Shown: one piece after another, positions 1,823 through 43,016 of the stretch
Numbering within the stretch: the stretch's first letter is position 1
Layout of the letters: every line of letters starts with the position of its first letter
From: a virus
Length of the DNA stretch: 46,682 bases
Strand: one strand, 5' to 3'
Virus record (IMG/VR): IMGVR_UViG_3300012988_000021
Location: 1-46,682 of that record
Program-made: the position numbers and the translations under genes
Notes under the pieces: model-generated
Database searches by the model: none
Told to the model about the DNA's origin: nothing
The model's input: only the letters and a program-made list of their open reading frames with translations

Positions 1823-1880
1823 GTGATCCTAGACCCCGGCCCCGAGTTGCCCCGGGACCGGGTTACCTTTCGGCCGTTTG

Positions 1881-1965
1881 CGGAGAGGGAGGGATTCGAA
1901 CCCCCGGTAGGATTGCTCCTACGCCTGCGTATCAAGCAGGTGCTTTAGGCCACTCAGCCACCTCC
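1881..1965 (-). tRNA. Class II tRNA-Ser-like gene, GAU anticodon, damaged acceptor
   Basis: The D arm (GCT/AGC), anticodon arm (CCTGC-TTGATAC-GCAGG), long variable arm (GTAGGA-GCAA-TCCTAC) and T arm (GGGGG-TTCGAAT-CCCTC) are all intact and have the tRNA-Ser shape. Two things are wrong. The loop TTGATAC puts GAT at positions 34-36, an isoleucine anticodon on a serine scaffold. The 5' acceptor strand reads GGAGG where GGAGAGG would pair with CCTCTCC, so two bases appear to be missing and the stem cannot close in register. No CCA is encoded. It may be a decayed phage-borne tRNA-Ser, a mistranslating tRNA, or a tRNA-derived RNA. Alternative 5' end: 1967. Confidence 0.7.
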
Positions 1966-2066
1966 GAATCGGGCTTGTGCGGACAGAGCCAGATTCGGAG
2001 ACGGACGAGAACCTGACGGTACCCGTTGCGTGGGGCGGGTCAAGAGGGCGGGACATGGCGTAACTT

Positions 2067-15493: not shown

Positions 15494-16120
15494 TCACAAA
15501 TCGATTACGCCCAAACCAGGGGGCTTGCGACGCTTGCGCCAAAAACTGGTGTCGCATTCGATCAGTATGTTGGGGGTCCGCTTGATGCCATCGAGGAAGG
15601 TCCAGCATCGTCGAACCTTCGGGTCGTCGATCTGAGCGAGCCGCTCCAACGCTGTGAAGAAACGATGCCGCACATTCCCTTGGCTCGTCCCCAGCAGCTC
15701 AGCCGTACGACTCTGGCTGCTGGTTTTGAACATCCCGACCAACACCTCGATCGTGTGTGGTTTGAGCAGCGGCGCTAACGTGGTGCGGATCTCTTGCTCG
15801 CTCAGATCCGGCATCGAATCGAGAAAGCGAACACGGCGACAAGCCCGCTGGAAACGGTATGAGATGGCCGCTTGCGTCATGTTGAGGATGCGGGCGATCT
15901 CCAGCTCAGTCTTGCCTGCCAGCCGAAGCTCAACCACGTCTGCCTCGATCGGCGGTAGACGATGCAACCATCGGGTTAGGTCAGCCAAGCTGTAGGCAGG
16001 TTCGACCGTTGCCTGAGGCTCGACCACGCCATCCAACGCATCCACGATTTGATCGGTCGGATCCCGCCCGGCTTTGGCCTCAATGCTGAGTGTCAACGGA
16101 ACGAAGAAATGATCACTCAT
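15494..16120 (-). CDS. Double region-4-like HTH regulator
   Basis: 208 residues from ATG 16120 (MSDHFFVPLTLS), in an ATGA overlap with the Cys-rich secreted protein upstream. The first HTH, LPPIEADVVELRLAGKTELE plus IARILNMTQAAISYRFQRAC, is sigma region-4-like. The second, MFKTSSQSRTAELLGTSQGN with VRHRFFTALERLA, repeats the same plan. A basic tail follows. No region 2, so it cannot act as a complete sigma factor alone. Likely a transcription activator or a sigma-4 partner of the phage. Confidence 0.7.
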   Translation of the reverse strand: MSDHFFVPLTLSIEAKAGRDPTDQIVDALDGVVEPQATVEPAYSLADLTRWLHRLPPIEADVVELRLAGKTELEIARILNMTQAAISYRFQRACRRVRFLDSMPDLSEQEIRTTLAPLLKPHTIEVLVGMFKTSSQSRTAELLGTSQGNVRHRFFTALERLAQIDDPKVRRCWTFLDGIKRTPNILIECDTSFWRKRRKPPGLGVIDL

Positions 16121-16314
16121 TCGGCGACACACCGCCAGCCGCAGCTGAACATGCTGGCCGACTCGCACAGGCAGATCGGGTGCTGGTTCAGATGGCAGAT
16201 CGGCTTCAGCGATCGGCAGTAACGGTCGTGGTCGTCACCCGCTGCCCGGGACCCGGCGAAGCCGACAGCCTGCAAGGCGAGGGAAGCTAGGACGATGGCG
16301 ATCAGGTGGCGCAT
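16117..16314 (-). CDS. Small secreted Cys-rich protein
   Basis: 65 residues. MRHLIAIVLASLALQAVGFA is a Sec signal peptide with cleavage probable after GSRAA or AVGFA. The mature ~40 residues hold six Cys (RYCRSLKPICHLNQ, CLCESASMFSCGWRC), suggesting disulphides in the periplasm or outside. It overlaps the following regulator by 4 bp. Function unknown; a small exported inhibitor or envelope factor fits. Confidence 0.65.
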   Translation of the reverse strand: MRHLIAIVLASLALQAVGFAGSRAAGDDHDRYCRSLKPICHLNQHPICLCESASMFSCGWRCVAE

Positions 16315-29236: not shown

Positions 29237-29751
29237 TTGGCGAGCTCCTGGAACTGCTTGGTCAAGGCTTCGATTTGTTGGTCGTACGGGTCAGTCGATT
29301 TGTTGACCGCTGCCGCTTCTGGTTTCGCCAAGGCGAACTTTGGCTCACGAGTTTCGAGGAACTTGATCGTGATGATGTAGGCTCCCGTGTCGCCGTCTTC
29401 TTCAGGCTGGCTTACTTCCTCCACACCCACAGAGCTGATGTCCAAGAAGTCCAACCACGGATGCCAGATCGACATCGATTTGGGGCGACTGCCGAAAGGC
29501 GGACGTTGGACGAGCGGCTTAAATGAGTCCCAATCTTGCCAATCCTTGGCTTCAATGAGGCGAATCTTGGCCGAAAACTTGCTGATTTCACGGCCTCGAA
29601 AGACTGTGATGCCACCCGACAGGCCATAGCCAGCTCGGATGTCCCATGCTCGCTTGTCGGCCGCACCTTCAATGGTGGCGATGCCCGGCGAGCGCTGGCC
29701 GGCGAGCAAGAAGTAGTCGACTGGCGTCAGGTATGGATCGAAGCCGGCCAT
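29233..29751 (-). CDS. Tail/baseplate hub assembly protein
   Basis: 172 residues. FDPYLTPVDYFLLAGQRSPG, YGLSGGITVFRGREISKFSA and WDSFKPLVQRPPFGSRPKSM; then strand SSVGVEEVSQPEE and IITIKFLETREPKF. It resembles phage proteins that connect the tape measure to the hub in contractile-tail loci. It shares the TGATG junction with the tape measure and overlaps the hub gene by 4 bp. Confidence 0.65.
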   Translation of the reverse strand: MAGFDPYLTPVDYFLLAGQRSPGIATIEGAADKRAWDIRAGYGLSGGITVFRGREISKFSAKIRLIEAKDWQDWDSFKPLVQRPPFGSRPKSMSIWHPWLDFLDISSVGVEEVSQPEEDGDTGAYIITIKFLETREPKFALAKPEAAAVNKSTDPYDQQIEALTKQFQELAK

Positions 29752-31757
29752 CAGGGCACCTCCGCTCCGAGTTCGGTCGCACTGCCGGCGAACAGTTTGA
29801 ACACCGCAACCTTGACCGCTTCGCCGAACGACTCTGGGTTGTCGGTTGCCGAATGGACGTGCAGCTCACCAATCTGCACGGATGGCATCGCCCGTGCCGG
29901 CGGTGGCGGTGCAGGTCGTGAGCCGAAGATCGACGCACCAACACTGGCTTGGTCCCCCACACCGTCACGGCGGCGATCACCTTGCCGACGAGTCGGCAAC
30001 GAGACCAAGCTACGCTCCGCGGAGCGCGGTCCGGGTCGTGGTGTCGAGATCGAGATCAGGCTACGGCCAGCATTTCGGGCTCCTGGCTGCCGTGTGGGCA
30101 TCACCACCAGGCTCTGGACGGCCCGATGGACCTCAGGTTGTCCTTGCCGGATACCGCCCGCCACACCTCTAGGGACCTCGATGGCGGAACGCATCGCCAC
30201 CCTGGAGGGTGACGCGATACCTAGCTTGGCCCGGAACGCCTTCATGGCGCTGGTGCCCAAGTTCTCGATGGCGGTGATGACCCAATTGGCACCGGACTTG
30301 ATGCCGTCGACCAAGCCTTTGACGATGTTTGTTCCCGCCTCAGTTGCTGCAATAGCGAGGCTACCCAAGGCTTTGACACCCCTGTAGATCCCGTACGCAA
30401 GCAGGCCAACGACAGCGAAGGGCAACAGCATGGCAACCGCCAAGCCTGCGAGCGCCACACCAGTGATGACGACTGCTGAGGCAAGGCTGTAGAGAGCGAT
30501 CTCGCCAGCCGCCACAGCGAGCCGCATCAGGTCCAGGTTCTTGAACAGCTTGGTGTCGCCGAACGTTTCTCTGAACCAGTTCCGAAGCTTCAAGATCACG
30601 ATCCCGACTTGAAGCGCGGCGATGATCATTCCCTGGAAAAACCGCTTCACAAGCAATGAGGCGGGTCCGCTCACTTGATCGATCAACGGCCCGAACAGAC
30701 CCTCGATCAGCGCCTTCAAAGCTTTGCCTGAAGCGGACGATTGCGAAAACAGATCGGTGATCTGCTTCACGCCACTCAACAGCTTGTCGATCTTGAGCCC
30801 GCTGAACAGCATGGCGAAGCTCTCGTGCAGCTTCTTGGATTGCACATCGAGCGAGAGCATTTGAGCGGCTGCAATGCCGCCCAGGCGAGCTTTGACGTCG
30901 TCTGACAGCGCCTTGATCGACTTACCAGCCAAGCCAGCGCCCAAAGCCATGCCTTTGAACGCAGCTGCTGCGGTCTCACCCTGGGTGGCTGAGGTGATCG
31001 CCACACCTTCCAGTGCTGCTTGGAGGTTGCCTCCACGCAGACCAGTTCGGTACAGCTCATCGGCGTACTTGCTTACTTCGTCCCGACCAAGAGCAACGCT
31101 GGATGAGACGCTGTCGATGGTGCTCTGGAGAAAGCTGGCCTTGTCGGCCGCCGGTTGGAAGCCACCAGCTAGGCGGAGGTAACCATAACGGAGCTTGGTC
31201 AGAGCGTCCAAATGCAAGAGCTCGCTACGTCTCGCATCGGCAACACCGACTCCGAATTTCAAGAGCGCGGCCGTCCCGACGACAGCAGCGGCTGCAACGG
31301 CAACGATGGCCGCCGCAACAGCAACCAAGCCGGCAGCGAGAGCACCGCCAGCCAACGCACCTTCGAGGCCACCTAGGCTAGACGTCAGTTTGCCAAGTGG
31401 TCCAGGTGCCGCTTGCACCAGCTCACCCAAGTTCTTGAGACCGGCACCAGCGTCTTTTCCGCCCTTGCCGATGTCTTTGAACGTGCCGCCCATCTGCACA
31501 TACTGCTGAGTGGTGCTGGCGATCGTGGCCTTCTGGGCAGCGATGCGATCCTTCAGATCACGAGCCACCTGGATGTTGACCGCACTGCCGCCTTGCAGGT
31601 TCCGCAGTGCCTTTTGCATCTCTCGCAAGGCAACGGTGTCGCCTTGGATCTGGGTCTGGAGGTCAGCGAGTGCACGTGAGGAATCGCCAGCAACCGAACT
31701 AGCGTTGCTGTCCATTTCCAGGCTAAATCGTGCTACTGCTTCACTCCCGCTGGCCAT
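29751..31757 (-). CDS. Tape measure protein
   Basis: 668 residues, the longest protein of the tail block. Coiled-coil start (ADLQTQIQGDTVALREMQKA, VARDLKDRIAAQKATIASTT), hydrophobic Gly/Ala segments at ~130-160 (GALAGGALAAGLVAVAAAIV) and ~415-450, and a basic Pro-rich region near the C-terminus (MPTRQPGARNAGRSLISIST). It sets tail length and is ejected ahead of the DNA. It starts in the TAATG junction at the end of the frameshifted chaperone. For a contractile tail 668 residues predicts a short to medium length. Confidence 0.88.
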   Translation of the reverse strand: MASGSEAVARFSLEMDSNASSVAGDSSRALADLQTQIQGDTVALREMQKALRNLQGGSAVNIQVARDLKDRIAAQKATIASTTQQYVQMGGTFKDIGKGGKDAGAGLKNLGELVQAAPGPLGKLTSSLGGLEGALAGGALAAGLVAVAAAIVAVAAAAVVGTAALLKFGVGVADARRSELLHLDALTKLRYGYLRLAGGFQPAADKASFLQSTIDSVSSSVALGRDEVSKYADELYRTGLRGGNLQAALEGVAITSATQGETAAAAFKGMALGAGLAGKSIKALSDDVKARLGGIAAAQMLSLDVQSKKLHESFAMLFSGLKIDKLLSGVKQITDLFSQSSASGKALKALIEGLFGPLIDQVSGPASLLVKRFFQGMIIAALQVGIVILKLRNWFRETFGDTKLFKNLDLMRLAVAAGEIALYSLASAVVITGVALAGLAVAMLLPFAVVGLLAYGIYRGVKALGSLAIAATEAGTNIVKGLVDGIKSGANWVITAIENLGTSAMKAFRAKLGIASPSRVAMRSAIEVPRGVAGGIRQGQPEVHRAVQSLVVMPTRQPGARNAGRSLISISTPRPGPRSAERSLVSLPTRRQGDRRRDGVGDQASVGASIFGSRPAPPPPARAMPSVQIGELHVHSATDNPESFGEAVKVAVFKLFAGSATELGAEVP

Positions 31758-32370
31758 TACTTTGGTTCCTTTGGCGCAGTCAGCAGCTTGCGGATTTTCG
31801 GGAGTTCAAAGAGCAACTCCAGGACCACGAGAGCCAATGTCGTGCGCTTGACCGTCTCTTCGTCATCCTCCGGCTCAGGCCAGAGGCTCAGGAGGAGGTG
31901 AGCCGCTACGCCGAGGTCAGCTTTCGCTTCTCGACGTAGCTCCTTTATTTTCCCGACAACGCATCCTTACGAATGCCCGCCAGGTGTGCGATTGCGTTGG
32001 AACAGACCGTCAGTACGCCCGGCTGTTCCTTCAGGATCTCTTCGAACGCTTCGATCGACGGATACCTGACGCATGGGATCACCAGTTGCTTCAGATCATC
32101 GATCTTGAACTCAGTCTTTTCAGCGAACCGGTTGTATGCTGCTGGTGCGGAGCGGAGCAGGATCACAGCGCCGTAGTCGGTGTCGATCCTAGCCAGCTGC
32201 TTCGGCTTGTACTGCTCCAGCAGTGCCGACATCGCTTGCTCTTCTTTGAGAGCACGCTCCTCAGCAGCGAGTTCGGCAGCCAATTCATCGGCCTCGTTGA
32301 CGGGCTTGGCCTGCAGGGCGGCTCGAGCCGCTTTTGCGGCTGCCAAACGTTTCTTCAAGTCATCACTCAC
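31757..32370 (-). CDS. Frameshifted tail assembly chaperone (G-GT type)
   Basis: The product of a -1 frameshift at GGGAAAA (31954-31948, minus strand). After GGA-AAA the ribosome moves back one base and continues ATA AAG GAG CTA. The new frame stays open for 63 codons (IKELRREAKADLGVAAHLLL, then SLWPEPEDDEETVKRTTLAL, then VVLELLFELPKIRKLLTAPK), and its stop TAA shares a base with the tape-measure ATG. This is the classical arrangement of lambda G/GT and its counterparts in myophages, where the longer protein binds the tape measure and the shorter recruits tube subunits. Total about 204 residues. I could follow every codon and found no stop. Confidence 0.88.
31945..32370 (-). CDS. Tail assembly chaperone, short form
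   Basis: 141 residues. N-terminal Ala/Lys helix (DDLKKRLAAAKAARAALQAK), an acidic helix (ADELAAELAAEERALKEEQA), then YKPKQLARIDTDYGAVILLR and YNRFAEKTEFKIDDLKQLVI. It ends DALSGK at the slippery site. It lies between tube and tape measure, where the tail chaperone is expected. It overlaps the tube gene stop by 4 bp. Confidence 0.82.
   Translation of the reverse strand: MSDDLKKRLAAAKAARAALQAKPVNEADELAAELAAEERALKEEQAMSALLEQYKPKQLARIDTDYGAVILLRSAPAAYNRFAEKTEFKIDDLKQLVIPCVRYPSIEAFEEILKEQPGVLTVCSNAIAHLAGIRKDALSGK
31948..31954 (-). promoter_or_regulatory. Slippery heptamer GGGAAAA, -1 frameshift site
   Basis: Reads G GGA AAA TAA in the chaperone frame, a canonical X-XXY-YYZ site one codon before the stop. 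An AGGAG sequence follows 3 bases after the heptamer (AATAAAGGAGC); it cannot act as an upstream stimulator but may help pausing. The downstream frame is open for 63 codons. Confidence 0.85.
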
Positions 32371-32846
32371 GGAGCACCTCCCGATCCATCAAACTGAGTC
32401 ATGCCGTTTCGGCGGATCGCCATGGCGTCGATCTCGATCTCCTCTTGCAGCGGATCGGGGTTCTCTTCTTCAGAGCTCGAAGTGCCGACGTAAACGCATC
32501 GTTCGATGTCGACGTACATCTCGGGTTCGAAGTCTTCGATGTATTGCGTGTTGATGTGGAACTCGTAGTCGCCGTAGCTGTTGCCGTCGGGCGACAAGCT
32601 GGCGAGCTTGGTCCGAAGAGCGTGCATGGTCGACTTGGGCCCCTTCAATTTGACGGGCTCGACTGTGTACTTGCCACGGGTACGCGCACGTGGAGCGTGG
32701 TGCTTACCCATGCCGTATTGCTTGGTTCGCTCTCGCTTGTCGGAGTAGCTCAGGCTCGTGAAGCCAGTAAAGATTTCGTCGTCTACCCGAAGGGTGATTG
32801 AACCCCACGAGACGATGTTGCCGTTAATGCGGATTTGGTCTGCCAT
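32367..32846 (-). CDS. Tail tube protein
   Basis: 159 residues: IRINGNIVSWGSITLRVDDE, FTGFTSLSYSDKRERTKQYG, RGKYTVEPVKLKGPKSTMHA, then SYGDYEFHINTQYIEDFEPE. This is the strand layout of phage tail tube proteins, and it follows the sheath gene as in other contractile-tail phages. It stacks as hexameric rings inside the sheath. Confidence 0.82.
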   Translation of the reverse strand: MADQIRINGNIVSWGSITLRVDDEIFTGFTSLSYSDKRERTKQYGMGKHHAPRARTRGKYTVEPVKLKGPKSTMHALRTKLASLSPDGNSYGDYEFHINTQYIEDFEPEMYVDIERCVYVGTSSSEEENPDPLQEEIEIDAMAIRRNGMTQFDGSGGAP

Positions 32847-32861: not shown

Positions 32862-34313
32862 TCACGCTGCTTGGACTGCCGGGTTGTAAAATCCGGTGTC
32901 GATGAGGATGAGTTTTGGATAGAACAGCGGAACGATGCCCTCGCTGACCTGTAGTTTGTCGCCCTGGAGCAGGTTGGTGTTCCGGTCGATCTTGACGAAC
33001 TTGACCTGGCCATACGCACCCGCGCTCGCCATCGGCTTGGCCATGATCGCGTTACGGATGGCTGCGTTGCAGGCAGCTTCGATCGCCACTGCTTCGCTTT
33101 CGAGGATCGTGCCCTTATTAGCGTCGACCTTGATCGGCTTCGACAAGCGGCGTTGAAAGAAGAGGCGAGTCGTCCTCTTCAGCAAGTTCATCACCCTGCG
33201 GTGTTGGAACCACTGGAAGTCAGAACCGCTCGGGCTGAACAGGCGTGGGTTGCAGGTGTAGACACCTTGCTCACCGTCCCAGGTGCGGAGCACCGTGAAA
33301 CGTGAGTCGGAGAGTCCAGGATTTACGAACTCGTCGTGCTCATCAACGCCACCATTGGCGTCACGGATGACGACACCAGGCAGATTGCCGACGTCGATCG
33401 CCGAGATATCGATTTCGTGTGAGACAGTGGCCGCCAATGGGGCGATAGCGAAGCTGACGGGGCGCTTGTAGAGTCGACCGCTAACAGCTGAGCTGATCTT
33501 GGCCGAGCCAGCACACAGCATGCCGACCGTGCTGGAAAGCGAGCCGAAGATGCCGTCGAGAGCGGTCTTGTAAGCGGATTCGGATTCGCCGATCGTCGGG
33601 ATCCGTGTGTGACCGATCCAAGCTTTTTCCGGCATTCCCGCGAAGCTGGTGCCGATAGCTGCGAAGCTGGTGGCGTCGATTGGTCCGATGATCGAGACGA
33701 CATCGAACGGCGTGGTGCTGACCTTCAGAGCGGCTAGAGCGGCGGTGAGATCACCAGACGCCCAATTGGGTGCCGTGGTTCGATAGCTGGCGGTGTCGCC
33801 GGCTACCAGGGTGCCGGTGCCAAGTGCAAAGCCGATGCCGCCGCTACCAGGGATGACGATCGAAGTCGCAACGCCCAACGCCGTTACTGCCGACCAAGAG
33901 CGTCCGCCATCGAGCGAGGTCTGGTATGTGATGCCCGTGGTGCCGACGGTTCCGCCGGTCACAATCTTGAGCACCACTTCGTAATCGTCGTTCGCCGTGG
34001 TGTCCGCACCGGCCGTCACCACGCTGGTTCCGGTGATGCCAGTCACAACGATCGCAGTCTCAGTGGCCGCCACCGAAGCGGTCGCTCTCGTGAGCAGGAC
34101 CGGTTGATCATAGGCGGTGATGAAATAGCAGGCAGCCTCGACTAGCGGGCCACCGCCGAAATTTGAAATCACATCCTGCGTGCGCGAAAACGCTGCAGGA
34201 GTGGCGATCGGGCCGGAGTCAGAGACGCCGACGATTGCAAAATACGATGCTCCACTTGGCAGTACGCCAAGGGCTCCATCCAACTCCGTGATGACTACGC
34301 TCGGTACGGGCAT
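32862..34313 (-). CDS. Contractile tail sheath protein
   Basis: 483 residues. GALGVLPSGASYFAIVGVSD at the N-terminus, TAFDVVSIIGPID-like middle (TTPFDVVSIIGPIDATSFAA), FTVLRTWDGEQGVYTCNPRL and FQWFQHRRVMNLLKRTTRLF near the C-terminus match the sheath family, including the C-terminal strand used in the handshake between subunits. Domain insertion at ~95-190 is Gly/Thr-rich. Its presence defines the virion as a myovirus type. A hairpin (34315-34335) covers its ribosome-binding site. Confidence 0.9.
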   Translation of the reverse strand: MPVPSVVITELDGALGVLPSGASYFAIVGVSDSGPIATPAAFSRTQDVISNFGGGPLVEAACYFITAYDQPVLLTRATASVAATETAIVVTGITGTSVVTAGADTTANDDYEVVLKIVTGGTVGTTGITYQTSLDGGRSWSAVTALGVATSIVIPGSGGIGFALGTGTLVAGDTASYRTTAPNWASGDLTAALAALKVSTTPFDVVSIIGPIDATSFAAIGTSFAGMPEKAWIGHTRIPTIGESESAYKTALDGIFGSLSSTVGMLCAGSAKISSAVSGRLYKRPVSFAIAPLAATVSHEIDISAIDVGNLPGVVIRDANGGVDEHDEFVNPGLSDSRFTVLRTWDGEQGVYTCNPRLFSPSGSDFQWFQHRRVMNLLKRTTRLFFQRRLSKPIKVDANKGTILESEAVAIEAACNAAIRNAIMAKPMASAGAYGQVKFVKIDRNTNLLQGDKLQVSEGIVPLFYPKLILIDTGFYNPAVQAA

Positions 34314-40134: not shown

Positions 40135-41751
40135 TTATCGTCGGAATGCGTCCATGCCGGCATACGGGTCAAACACTGGTGGGGCATATGGATCATAAGC
40201 CCGCTCAGGGACGTTGATCTCCACATACGGTGAGCCACCCGCATCGTCCTCTTGTCGGAGAGCGAGCGGTTCCCAAAGAGACATCACGAACGCATCGCCC
40301 ACGTCAGGCGACCTTCCCAACAGCTTGCGCAGGTCCTTCTTACTGGTGACCTTTAGCTTGTTGCCGGCCGAATAAAATTCGGGCGCATGAAGGTCGTCCT
40401 CCAATTTGGGATGCATCGGGATCATGCCGCCGTCCCTCAGCCACTGGCGAGCGATAGACCACATTTCATCGCGGATACGGTCGAACGTCTCTCGCTGCCG
40501 GATCGCCTTATCGCTGGTTCGGAGGCGCACCAGCCTGAACTTGTTGGTGGCGTCCACGTACTCTCTGGCAGCCGCGTAAACCCTTGCGCCAGTCTCGCCC
40601 TCGCTTTCAAGAACCACTGCGGGCTCGGGACCGACTCTGCGGTACTTGGCGATCAACGATTCGATTTGGTCGATGTGCTGCTGCGGGGACAAGCCCGATC
40701 GGGCCACAAGTTCCAACACTCGATTCCCGATGCGAGCGCAGAATCCAGACTCGTCGCCCCCAAGGCCGTCGCCAGCGGGGTCGACCCCTATATAGAGGCG
40801 CCCTTTTGGCAGCGGCTGTTCCTTGGTCGCTTCCCAGGCCTTGTTGGATTCGCCAATCAAGGTGAGCGGGATGATCTTGGCTGCCTCAGCAACGGCGAAC
40901 TTGCCAGCCACACGGATCAAGTATTGCGGACTGTCCTCACCCCATTCCCGTTTGCGTTGGTCGATCCACCCGGGCATTGCCAACCCTTTGATTGGCTTGT
41001 CCCCTAGTTGCTGCCATTCACCGGTACAGTTGGGGCTCTCCCATGAAGCAATATGAATGTTATGGTAGCCGGCGTCCTTAATGGCAGTTTTCGATTTTTT
41101 GTTGAACGCCCAGTAGAACTCTCCGTCAGCACGAGTTGGGTTGCTGATCAGAAACGTCGATGCACTGCCGCCAGCCCTGTTCCCTTCGATCGCTTCAAAT
41201 ATTTCGTCTTTGACGCCAGAGGCTTCGTCGACCAGGTAGAGGATGTGAGACCCTGAGGTTCCGGCGATGGCTTCGGGCTCACTCGCCGTGTAGCCCCTGA
41301 TCTCCGAATACGTTTCTGGATTGGTCAGGCCGGAACGAGCAAGGACGTTGATCTCTTTGGCGCCTGGGATCGGAACTTTCGACTTGCGACAAAAGCGTTT
41401 GATCTCACGCCAGATCACACGATTCACCTGCCCGTCGGTGACAGCGGTGATCACCACACGGGCGTCGGGGAAACTGCAATAGAACCAGAGAGCGAGAACG
41501 GCGAGGCTGGTCGACTTGCCCAACTTGTGCCCGCTTACGACGGCTACCTTGTTGTGATGGATGATGCTTTCAACGATCTCTCGCTGTCGGCTCCAAAGAT
41601 TGATCCCCAAGATGTCCCGGGCGAACCCGACCGGATCATTGGGGTATGCCCGAACCAGATCAGCATCCGTGGTGGGAGGTGCGATCCGGTCGGCCTCCGC
41701 CAACATGTGACGAGCCAACCGACTAGCGATCGTGTCGGAGTGGTTAGGCAC
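40135..41751 (-). CDS. Terminase large subunit
   Basis: 538 residues. Walker A GHKLGKST (~74-81), Walker B with catalytic Glu in HILYLVDEA (~170), coupling motif (FLISNPTRADGEF), then the RNase H-like nuclease with Asp in YIGVDPAGDGLGGDESGFC (~325) and AVVLESEGETG (~380). It cuts and pumps DNA into the prohead with TerS and portal. It overlaps the sigma-like gene by 8 bp. Confidence 0.92.
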   Translation of the reverse strand: MPNHSDTIASRLARHMLAEADRIAPPTTDADLVRAYPNDPVGFARDILGINLWSRQREIVESIIHHNKVAVVSGHKLGKSTSLAVLALWFYCSFPDARVVITAVTDGQVNRVIWREIKRFCRKSKVPIPGAKEINVLARSGLTNPETYSEIRGYTASEPEAIAGTSGSHILYLVDEASGVKDEIFEAIEGNRAGGSASTFLISNPTRADGEFYWAFNKKSKTAIKDAGYHNIHIASWESPNCTGEWQQLGDKPIKGLAMPGWIDQRKREWGEDSPQYLIRVAGKFAVAEAAKIIPLTLIGESNKAWEATKEQPLPKGRLYIGVDPAGDGLGGDESGFCARIGNRVLELVARSGLSPQQHIDQIESLIAKYRRVGPEPAVVLESEGETGARVYAAAREYVDATNKFRLVRLRTSDKAIRQRETFDRIRDEMWSIARQWLRDGGMIPMHPKLEDDLHAPEFYSAGNKLKVTSKKDLRKLLGRSPDVGDAFVMSLWEPLALRQEDDAGGSPYVEINVPERAYDPYAPPVFDPYAGMDAFRR

Positions 41752-42340
41752 GCTCGATCCTCCGGATCAGGCGCTCCTGCTCGTCGGGGGTCAGCCGTTC
41801 GTACGAGCGCTTCGCATCGAGCAGATCCTCGATGTCGTACGCTTCAGGTTCGGGGTCGTACCGAGCGAACTCTCGCTCATCACCATCGACGTCGGTGATG
41901 GCCTCGACCAGCACGACCGGATCTGGGCGTAGTGCCCGTTCAATTGCCGCTGGCGTGGGTGGCCTGGTACCTGCTGCCCACGACTCCAGGATCTCGCCAA
42001 TCGAGGGGTCACGACCCAACACGTGTGCAAGCTGCTGTGCGTGCCGGCGGATCGTGATACGCTCGTAATACTGGCGATGCGGTAGCAGCCGCTTGCCTGA
42101 GGCGAGCGAGTAGCGTGCAAGCTCACTGATGATGCAAGTTCGGGCGTAGCTGCTGAACCGCCCCGTAATCTGGTTTGCCTCGTACGAATCGACGGCGAGC
42201 AGCAAGCCGACCACACCGGCCTGAAATAGATCTTGGTCGTGTGCAGCGGATGGGCCGTACTTGGCGACCACGAGGGTGTGGACGAGACCCAAATTGTTGA
42301 GCACTCGTCGGTCCCGACTGATTCGCCGGCCCCGCTTCAA
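41744..42340 (-). CDS. Sigma-70 region 2/3-like protein without region 4
   Basis: 198 residues. NNLGLVHTLVVAKYG and DLFQAGVVGLLLAVDSYEAN followed by FSSYARTCIISELARYSLAS are sigma region 2 (core binding, -10 melting). RHAQQLAHVLGRDPSIGEIL fits region 3. The C-terminus stops in a short charged helix (SYERLTPDEQERLIRRIERA), where a full region 4 should follow. Its place between TerS and TerL is unusual. It may drive late genes with one of the separate region-4-like proteins (15128, 15494). Confidence 0.75.
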   Translation of the reverse strand: MKRGRRISRDRRVLNNLGLVHTLVVAKYGPSAAHDQDLFQAGVVGLLLAVDSYEANQITGRFSSYARTCIISELARYSLASGKRLLPHRQYYERITIRRHAQQLAHVLGRDPSIGEILESWAAGTRPPTPAAIERALRPDPVVLVEAITDVDGDEREFARYDPEPEAYDIEDLLDAKRSYERLTPDEQERLIRRIERA

Positions 42341-42882: not shown

Positions 42883-43016
42883 TCACAAGGGAAGAGTCAA
42901 TAAGTGTCCTATTGATGTAATCGTGTAATTCGGCCCCAGCTTCGAGGCGTAAAGGCGGGACCCTGGGGCCTTAAACGTCCCAAATACTGTTCTAGGGGTC
43001 CAACCCCTAGGTTGGC
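42883..43016. other. Short intergenic region with two hairpins
   Basis: CTAGGGGT-CCA-ACCCCTAG at 42992-43010 and GGCCCCAG/CTGGGGCC at 42932-42939 and 42963-42970. They lie between the XRE regulator stop and TerS, where a cos/pac site or a promoter for the packaging genes would be expected. No clear T run. Confidence 0.5.

Follow-up and report, generated by a model that had tools for sequence, protein, structure and literature searches.

Evidence for a lambda G/GT-like programmed -1 frameshift in the probable tail assembly chaperone gene of a phage with a DUF2586 sheath

The gene that lies between the tail tube and tape-measure genes in virus record IMGVR_UViG_3300012988_000021 ends in a slippery heptamer, and downstream of it an overlapping reading frame in the -1 phase continues to the first base of the tape-measure gene. 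On the sequence evidence we regard it as almost certain that this arrangement is a true programmed -1 frameshift like that of lambda G/GT. This reading is based on the signals in the sequence and how well they are conserved, on the selection acting on the extension and on gene context, all of which were computed here. In lambda, the tape measure is bound by gpG and by gpGT, the -1 product, whose T part brings in the tube subunit; the ratio of the two products matters for assembly (PMC5009743). Frameshifting in tail chaperone genes is a widely conserved feature of long-tailed phages; its direction is -1, -2 or +1 depending on the phage (PMC5009743).

The window, by which we mean the whole stretch of DNA analysed, is the entire virus record of 46,682 bases (59% G+C). 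Its minus strand carries a head and tail module with terminase, portal, protease, major head protein, DUF2586 sheath and baseplate J genes. Since the window encodes an integrase gene in addition to this module, with its DUF2586 sheath and baseplate J protein, it is probably the genome of a temperate contractile-tailed phage. Other genes on the minus strand include those for a radical SAM protein of 454 aa (PF04055, 6522-7886), two sigma-factor-like proteins (15494-16168 and 41744-42340) and a probable tail fibre with a collagen-like Gly-x-y stretch (PF01391, 22007-24538). Two tRNA genes were predicted, tRNA-Ile (gat) at 1880-1967 (-) and tRNA-Leu (taa) at 42936-43016 (+), of which the former only reached the Rfam tRNA threshold. 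The coordinates given by the sequence-only reading were correct; it left out the strand, which is minus for all of the features listed here:

32862..34313 (-), tail sheath (DUF2586); PF10758, E 6.7e-23; phrog_907, tail sheath; used as the anchor for finding relatives
32367..32846 (-), probable tail tube protein, 159 aa, between the sheath and the chaperone and immediately upstream of the latter
31945..32370 (-), tail assembly chaperone (very likely), zero-frame, G-like product of 141 aa; GTG start, stop TAA at 31947..31945; family alignments and weak fold matches
31948..31954 (-), slippery heptamer G_GGA_AAA, checked to be in exact X_XXY_YYZ register
31905..31940 (-), hairpin with an 11-bp outer stem and an inner AGC-GAAA-GCU, beginning 7 nt past the heptamer; probable stimulator
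31757..31948 (-), T-like extension in the -1 frame, 63 codons after the slip; stop TAA at 31759..31757; homologues in 58 loci
29751..31757 (-), tape-measure protein, 668 aa; PHROG tape-measure families, best E 1.3e-12

Two overlapping ORFs thus occupy the space between the tube and tape-measure genes. The 3' end of the chaperone ORF reads TCG GGA AAA TAA. The heptamer had been placed one codon before the stop; it is indeed present in frame, and its position was misjudged, as the TAA directly abuts it with no gap. Ten late genes of the window, 4,015 codons in all, contain GGGAAAA in this register once, at codon 139 of 142 in the chaperone gene. The -1 frame opens just 22 nt before the short ORF ends. 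As had been claimed, it is open throughout its 63 codons and terminates at the tape-measure start, with its stop at 31759..31757. There the last A of the stop doubles as the A of the tape-measure ATG (31757..31755), forming a TAATG junction. The tape-measure gene has an SD-like sequence of its own, AAAGGA, upstream of this ATG. A random frame of 62 codons with the same composition would be open about 9% of the time, so openness by itself is weak evidence.

Among profile libraries, Pfam had no model that matched the window chaperone, and no named tail assembly chaperone model was matched in either Pfam or PHROGs. PHROGs gave a match to phrog_5128 (function not known; E 1.1e-5) and a weak one to phrog_20303, a minor tail protein. 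The AF2 model of the protein has a pLDDT of 89.8. When it was compared with the PDB and with viral folds, no match had an E-value of 0.001 or below; the best in the PDB was a weak match to 3FGX (RBSTP2171; TM 0.73 by target, E 0.02), an entry also retrieved by profile search (E 0.003), and the next, also weak, was to 2OB9, the tail assembly chaperone of HK97 (TM 0.43, E 0.28). Matches among viral folds include several annotated tail assembly chaperones. Taking the weak fold matches together with the position of the gene and the frameshift arrangement, we consider it very likely that the product of 31945..32370 is a tail assembly chaperone. The upstream neighbour has weak PHROG matches, one of them to a tail protein, and is 90% identical to its counterpart in the nearest relative described below.

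No close relative of the chaperone was found among named phages, and a profile scan of cultured-genome contigs with a two-sequence sheath alignment found no relatives. IMG/VR yielded one close relative, L002, in which the slip site is G_GGA_AAA TAG and the short product is 66% identical to that of the window. Its extension is likewise in the -1 frame, with 64 codons, 59% protein identity and the TAATG junction kept. In a more distant locus, L004, the site is A_AAA_AAA TAA, the short product is 41% identical, and a conserved -1 extension runs up to TAATG. The sequence-only reading had staked itself on relatives being free of stops in the -1 frame, and both of these loci retain the slip site and the TAATG, together with a -1 frame that is open over a nearly equal length.

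A wider set was collected with the sheath as anchor: a six-member sheath alignment led to 80 loci, and named phages contributed Riverbug, MMP7, MMP17, Mx4 and Mushu. The chaperone and the extension were then located in most loci by profiles with no frame assumed, the zero-frame ORF being picked by profile, and the counts that follow rest on 64 distinct chaperone loci. A homologue of the extension was found by profile in 58 of the 64; 45 of these homologues lie in the -1 frame and 13 in the +1 frame, and none is in frame 0. The -1 arrangement is therefore that of 45 of the 58 loci with an extension, the other 13 having a +1 frame and a different slip-like site. In the annotations of MMP7, Mx4, Riverbug and MMP17 the two parts are given as separate CDSs or the second is left out; the extension is a separate hypothetical protein in MMP7 and Mx4 and is absent from the annotation of MMP17 (L008:7185-7334, L010:7239-7427, L009:7180-7331).

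An in-register heptamer is found near the zero-frame stop in 39 of the 45 -1 loci. It is GGGAAAA in 28, AAAAAAA in nine and AAAAAAG in two; the remaining six have no strict heptamer and still have NNA AAA or AAA AAA, which in one of them (L079) is far upstream of the stop. Across the 64 loci, 43 of the 512 codon positions that make up the final eight codons of the chaperone genes hold an in-register heptamer, versus 7 of 10,058 elsewhere, an enrichment of about 120-fold. All 28 GGGAAAA loci have exactly GGA AAA, and elsewhere in the chaperone genes GGA accounts for 9% of Gly codons and AAA for 17% of Lys codons. As both are minority codons, the slip site is kept at the RNA level and not merely as Gly-Lys. 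The slip-site columns AAAAT are invariant in 26 aligned sequences.

The extension itself is under purifying selection. Comparison of the window with L002 gave dN 0.33 and dS 1.13 (dN/dS about 0.29), values that mark it as a protein sequence under selection. They fall in the range of those for the tape measure and the short ORF in the same comparison, though the extension is somewhat less constrained. The earlier interpretation is supported by the relatives, and gene order, conservation of the extension and the weakly matched chaperone fold agree with its identification of a tail assembly chaperone.

Sequences that might stimulate slippage were also sought. The 81-nt fold has a free energy of -40.8 kcal/mol (z -4.46), which none of 200 shuffled sequences equalled, and the hairpin alone accounts for -21.5 kcal/mol. 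Its spacing of 7 nt from the heptamer lies inside the range of 5-9 nt expected of a downstream structural stimulator. The exact stem of the window is not conserved in place among relatives, where it barely exceeds slid controls, and RNAalifold gave no consensus structure downstream of the slip site in these sequences. In many -1 relatives, alignment columns 13-20 can pair with columns 66-73 to give a longer-range stem, for which covariation is modest (69% of cells paired versus 62% in shuffled alignments; 1 of 500 shuffles reached this value). Judged by eye from the alignment, the window lacks this stem and has the local hairpin instead. A downstream structure thus probably stimulates slippage, with a form that differs between relatives. 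For an upstream SD-like stimulator, the mean anti-SD energy was slightly better than in synonymous shuffles, with p<=0.1 in only 5 of 39 loci, which does not clearly set the family apart from the shuffles.

Three other accounts of these data were weighed against the -1 frameshift. The extension could be a separate small protein that has a start codon of its own, or that is made by re-initiation once the short ORF has been read, with no frameshift at all. The MMP7 and Mx4 annotations present it as a hypothetical CDS, some loci have a GTG or TTG close to the stop of the short ORF, and two chaperone ORFs of Microbacterium phages seem to be separately expressed (PMC7302621). In the window, however, there is no ATG, GTG or TTG for the extension frame near the stop of the short ORF, and because that frame opens only 22 nt before this ORF ends, a separate start is unlikely; 37 of the 58 loci, the window included, have none of these codons in the extension frame from -60 to +12 nt around the stop. 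Separate expression would also leave unexplained why 39 of the 45 -1 loci have a heptamer of rare codons in exact register, and we think this account very improbable.

The two frames could alternatively be joined by transcriptional slippage, in which RNA polymerase stutters on an A run and yields mRNAs that connect them. The A7 runs in L004, L052 and L073 are long enough for this, but the run in the window has only four A residues (GGGAAAA), the same short run occurs in 28 of the 45 -1 loci, and polymerase slippage has no need of the conserved codon register of the heptamer; there is little chance that it is the explanation. The possibility that the slippery-looking site and the open frame are by-products of composition without function can appeal to the 9% of such frames that would be open at the composition of the window. 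Against the selection measured on the extension, its presence in nearly all of the chaperone loci and the concentration of heptamers at gene ends, we give this possibility almost no credence.

Under a programmed -1 frameshift, the slippage, its efficiency and the parts played by the hairpin and the two products can be pictured as follows. The majority of ribosomes would halt at the TAA after GGA AAA, releasing the G-like chaperone of 141 aa. A minority would be paused by the hairpin beginning 7 nt downstream, and the tRNAs on GGA and AAA could then slip back by one base to pair with GGG and AAA. These ribosomes would read 63 extra codons, so that their chaperone ends in a T-like domain. If the two products work as gpG and gpGT do in lambda, coating of the tape-measure protein would fall to the short part and recruitment of the tail tube subunit to the extension.

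The lambda slip site, GGGAAAG, differs from the GGGAAAA of the window at the last base only. As in the window, the lambda order is tube, G, T in the -1 frame and tape measure, with the heptamer near the end of G. In contrast to lambda, the window phage is contractile-tailed, its slip site abuts the stop and a local hairpin is present; no sequence similarity to lambda G/GT was found in the libraries searched. The related sequence G_GGA_AAG is shifty in E. coli (PMC5009743), and chaperone frameshifting has been noted in P2 and Mu, that of Mu being a -2 slip (PMC5009743) and thus unlike the -1 slip proposed here. The genes of these two myophages resemble those of the window in that a chaperone with a frameshifted C-terminal extension precedes the tape measure, and no sequence match was found between the window chaperone and either system. 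The frameshifted chaperone genes are known as E/E+E' in P2 and gp41/gp42 in Mu. Closer to the window is Mx4 p57/p58, with a DUF2586-type sheath 28% identical to that of the window, a homologous chaperone and a -1 extension; it differs in having A_AAA_AAA 6 nt before the stop and in being annotated as two hypothetical proteins. Riverbug (Thermus) and MMP7 and MMP17 (Meiothermus) share the homologous sheath, chaperone and extension and the same gene order, but they place the extension in the +1 frame and have TTT C, and no -1 heptamer, ahead of the stop. In MMP7 the codons there are GAT TTT CGG CCG CTC TAA.

The 13 +1 loci (L008:6866-7334, L007:6853-7318, L057, L058, L059, L060, L062, L065, L068, L070, L071, L074 and L077) belong to a clade of Thermus/Meiothermus type that includes the named phages Riverbug and MMP7. 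TTT C is found upstream of the stop in all 13, where TTT makes up 25% of the Phe codons in these genes; because the loci are related, these are not 13 independent events. The natural reading of these sequences is a +1 slip on UUU_C; -2 slippage would give the same frame. The sheath tree places the 13 loci in one group (support 88/43; recovered in 86% of bootstrap trees) that lies within -1 lineages, with weak support at the deepest fork. We lean toward the view that the polarity switched once, from a -1 heptamer to a +1 UUU_C, within one chaperone family and with the extension protein kept. No paper on frameshifting in Thermus tail assembly genes was found in a literature search that covered mostly papers outside subscription.

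Frameshifting in the tail chaperone has long been known in tailed phages, and the case in the window is an ordinary one for such phages. With it, a known recoding device gains a well-supported example and dozens of metagenomic relatives; in current profile libraries the chaperone family concerned mostly carries the label of unknown function. For annotators, the practical consequence is that the two ORFs should be joined in phages with a DUF2586 sheath. The split between -1 and +1 across the family is the part that may interest recoding specialists: if the proposed switch is true, the window, on the -1 side, and its relatives would constitute a natural series for a frameshift changing direction.
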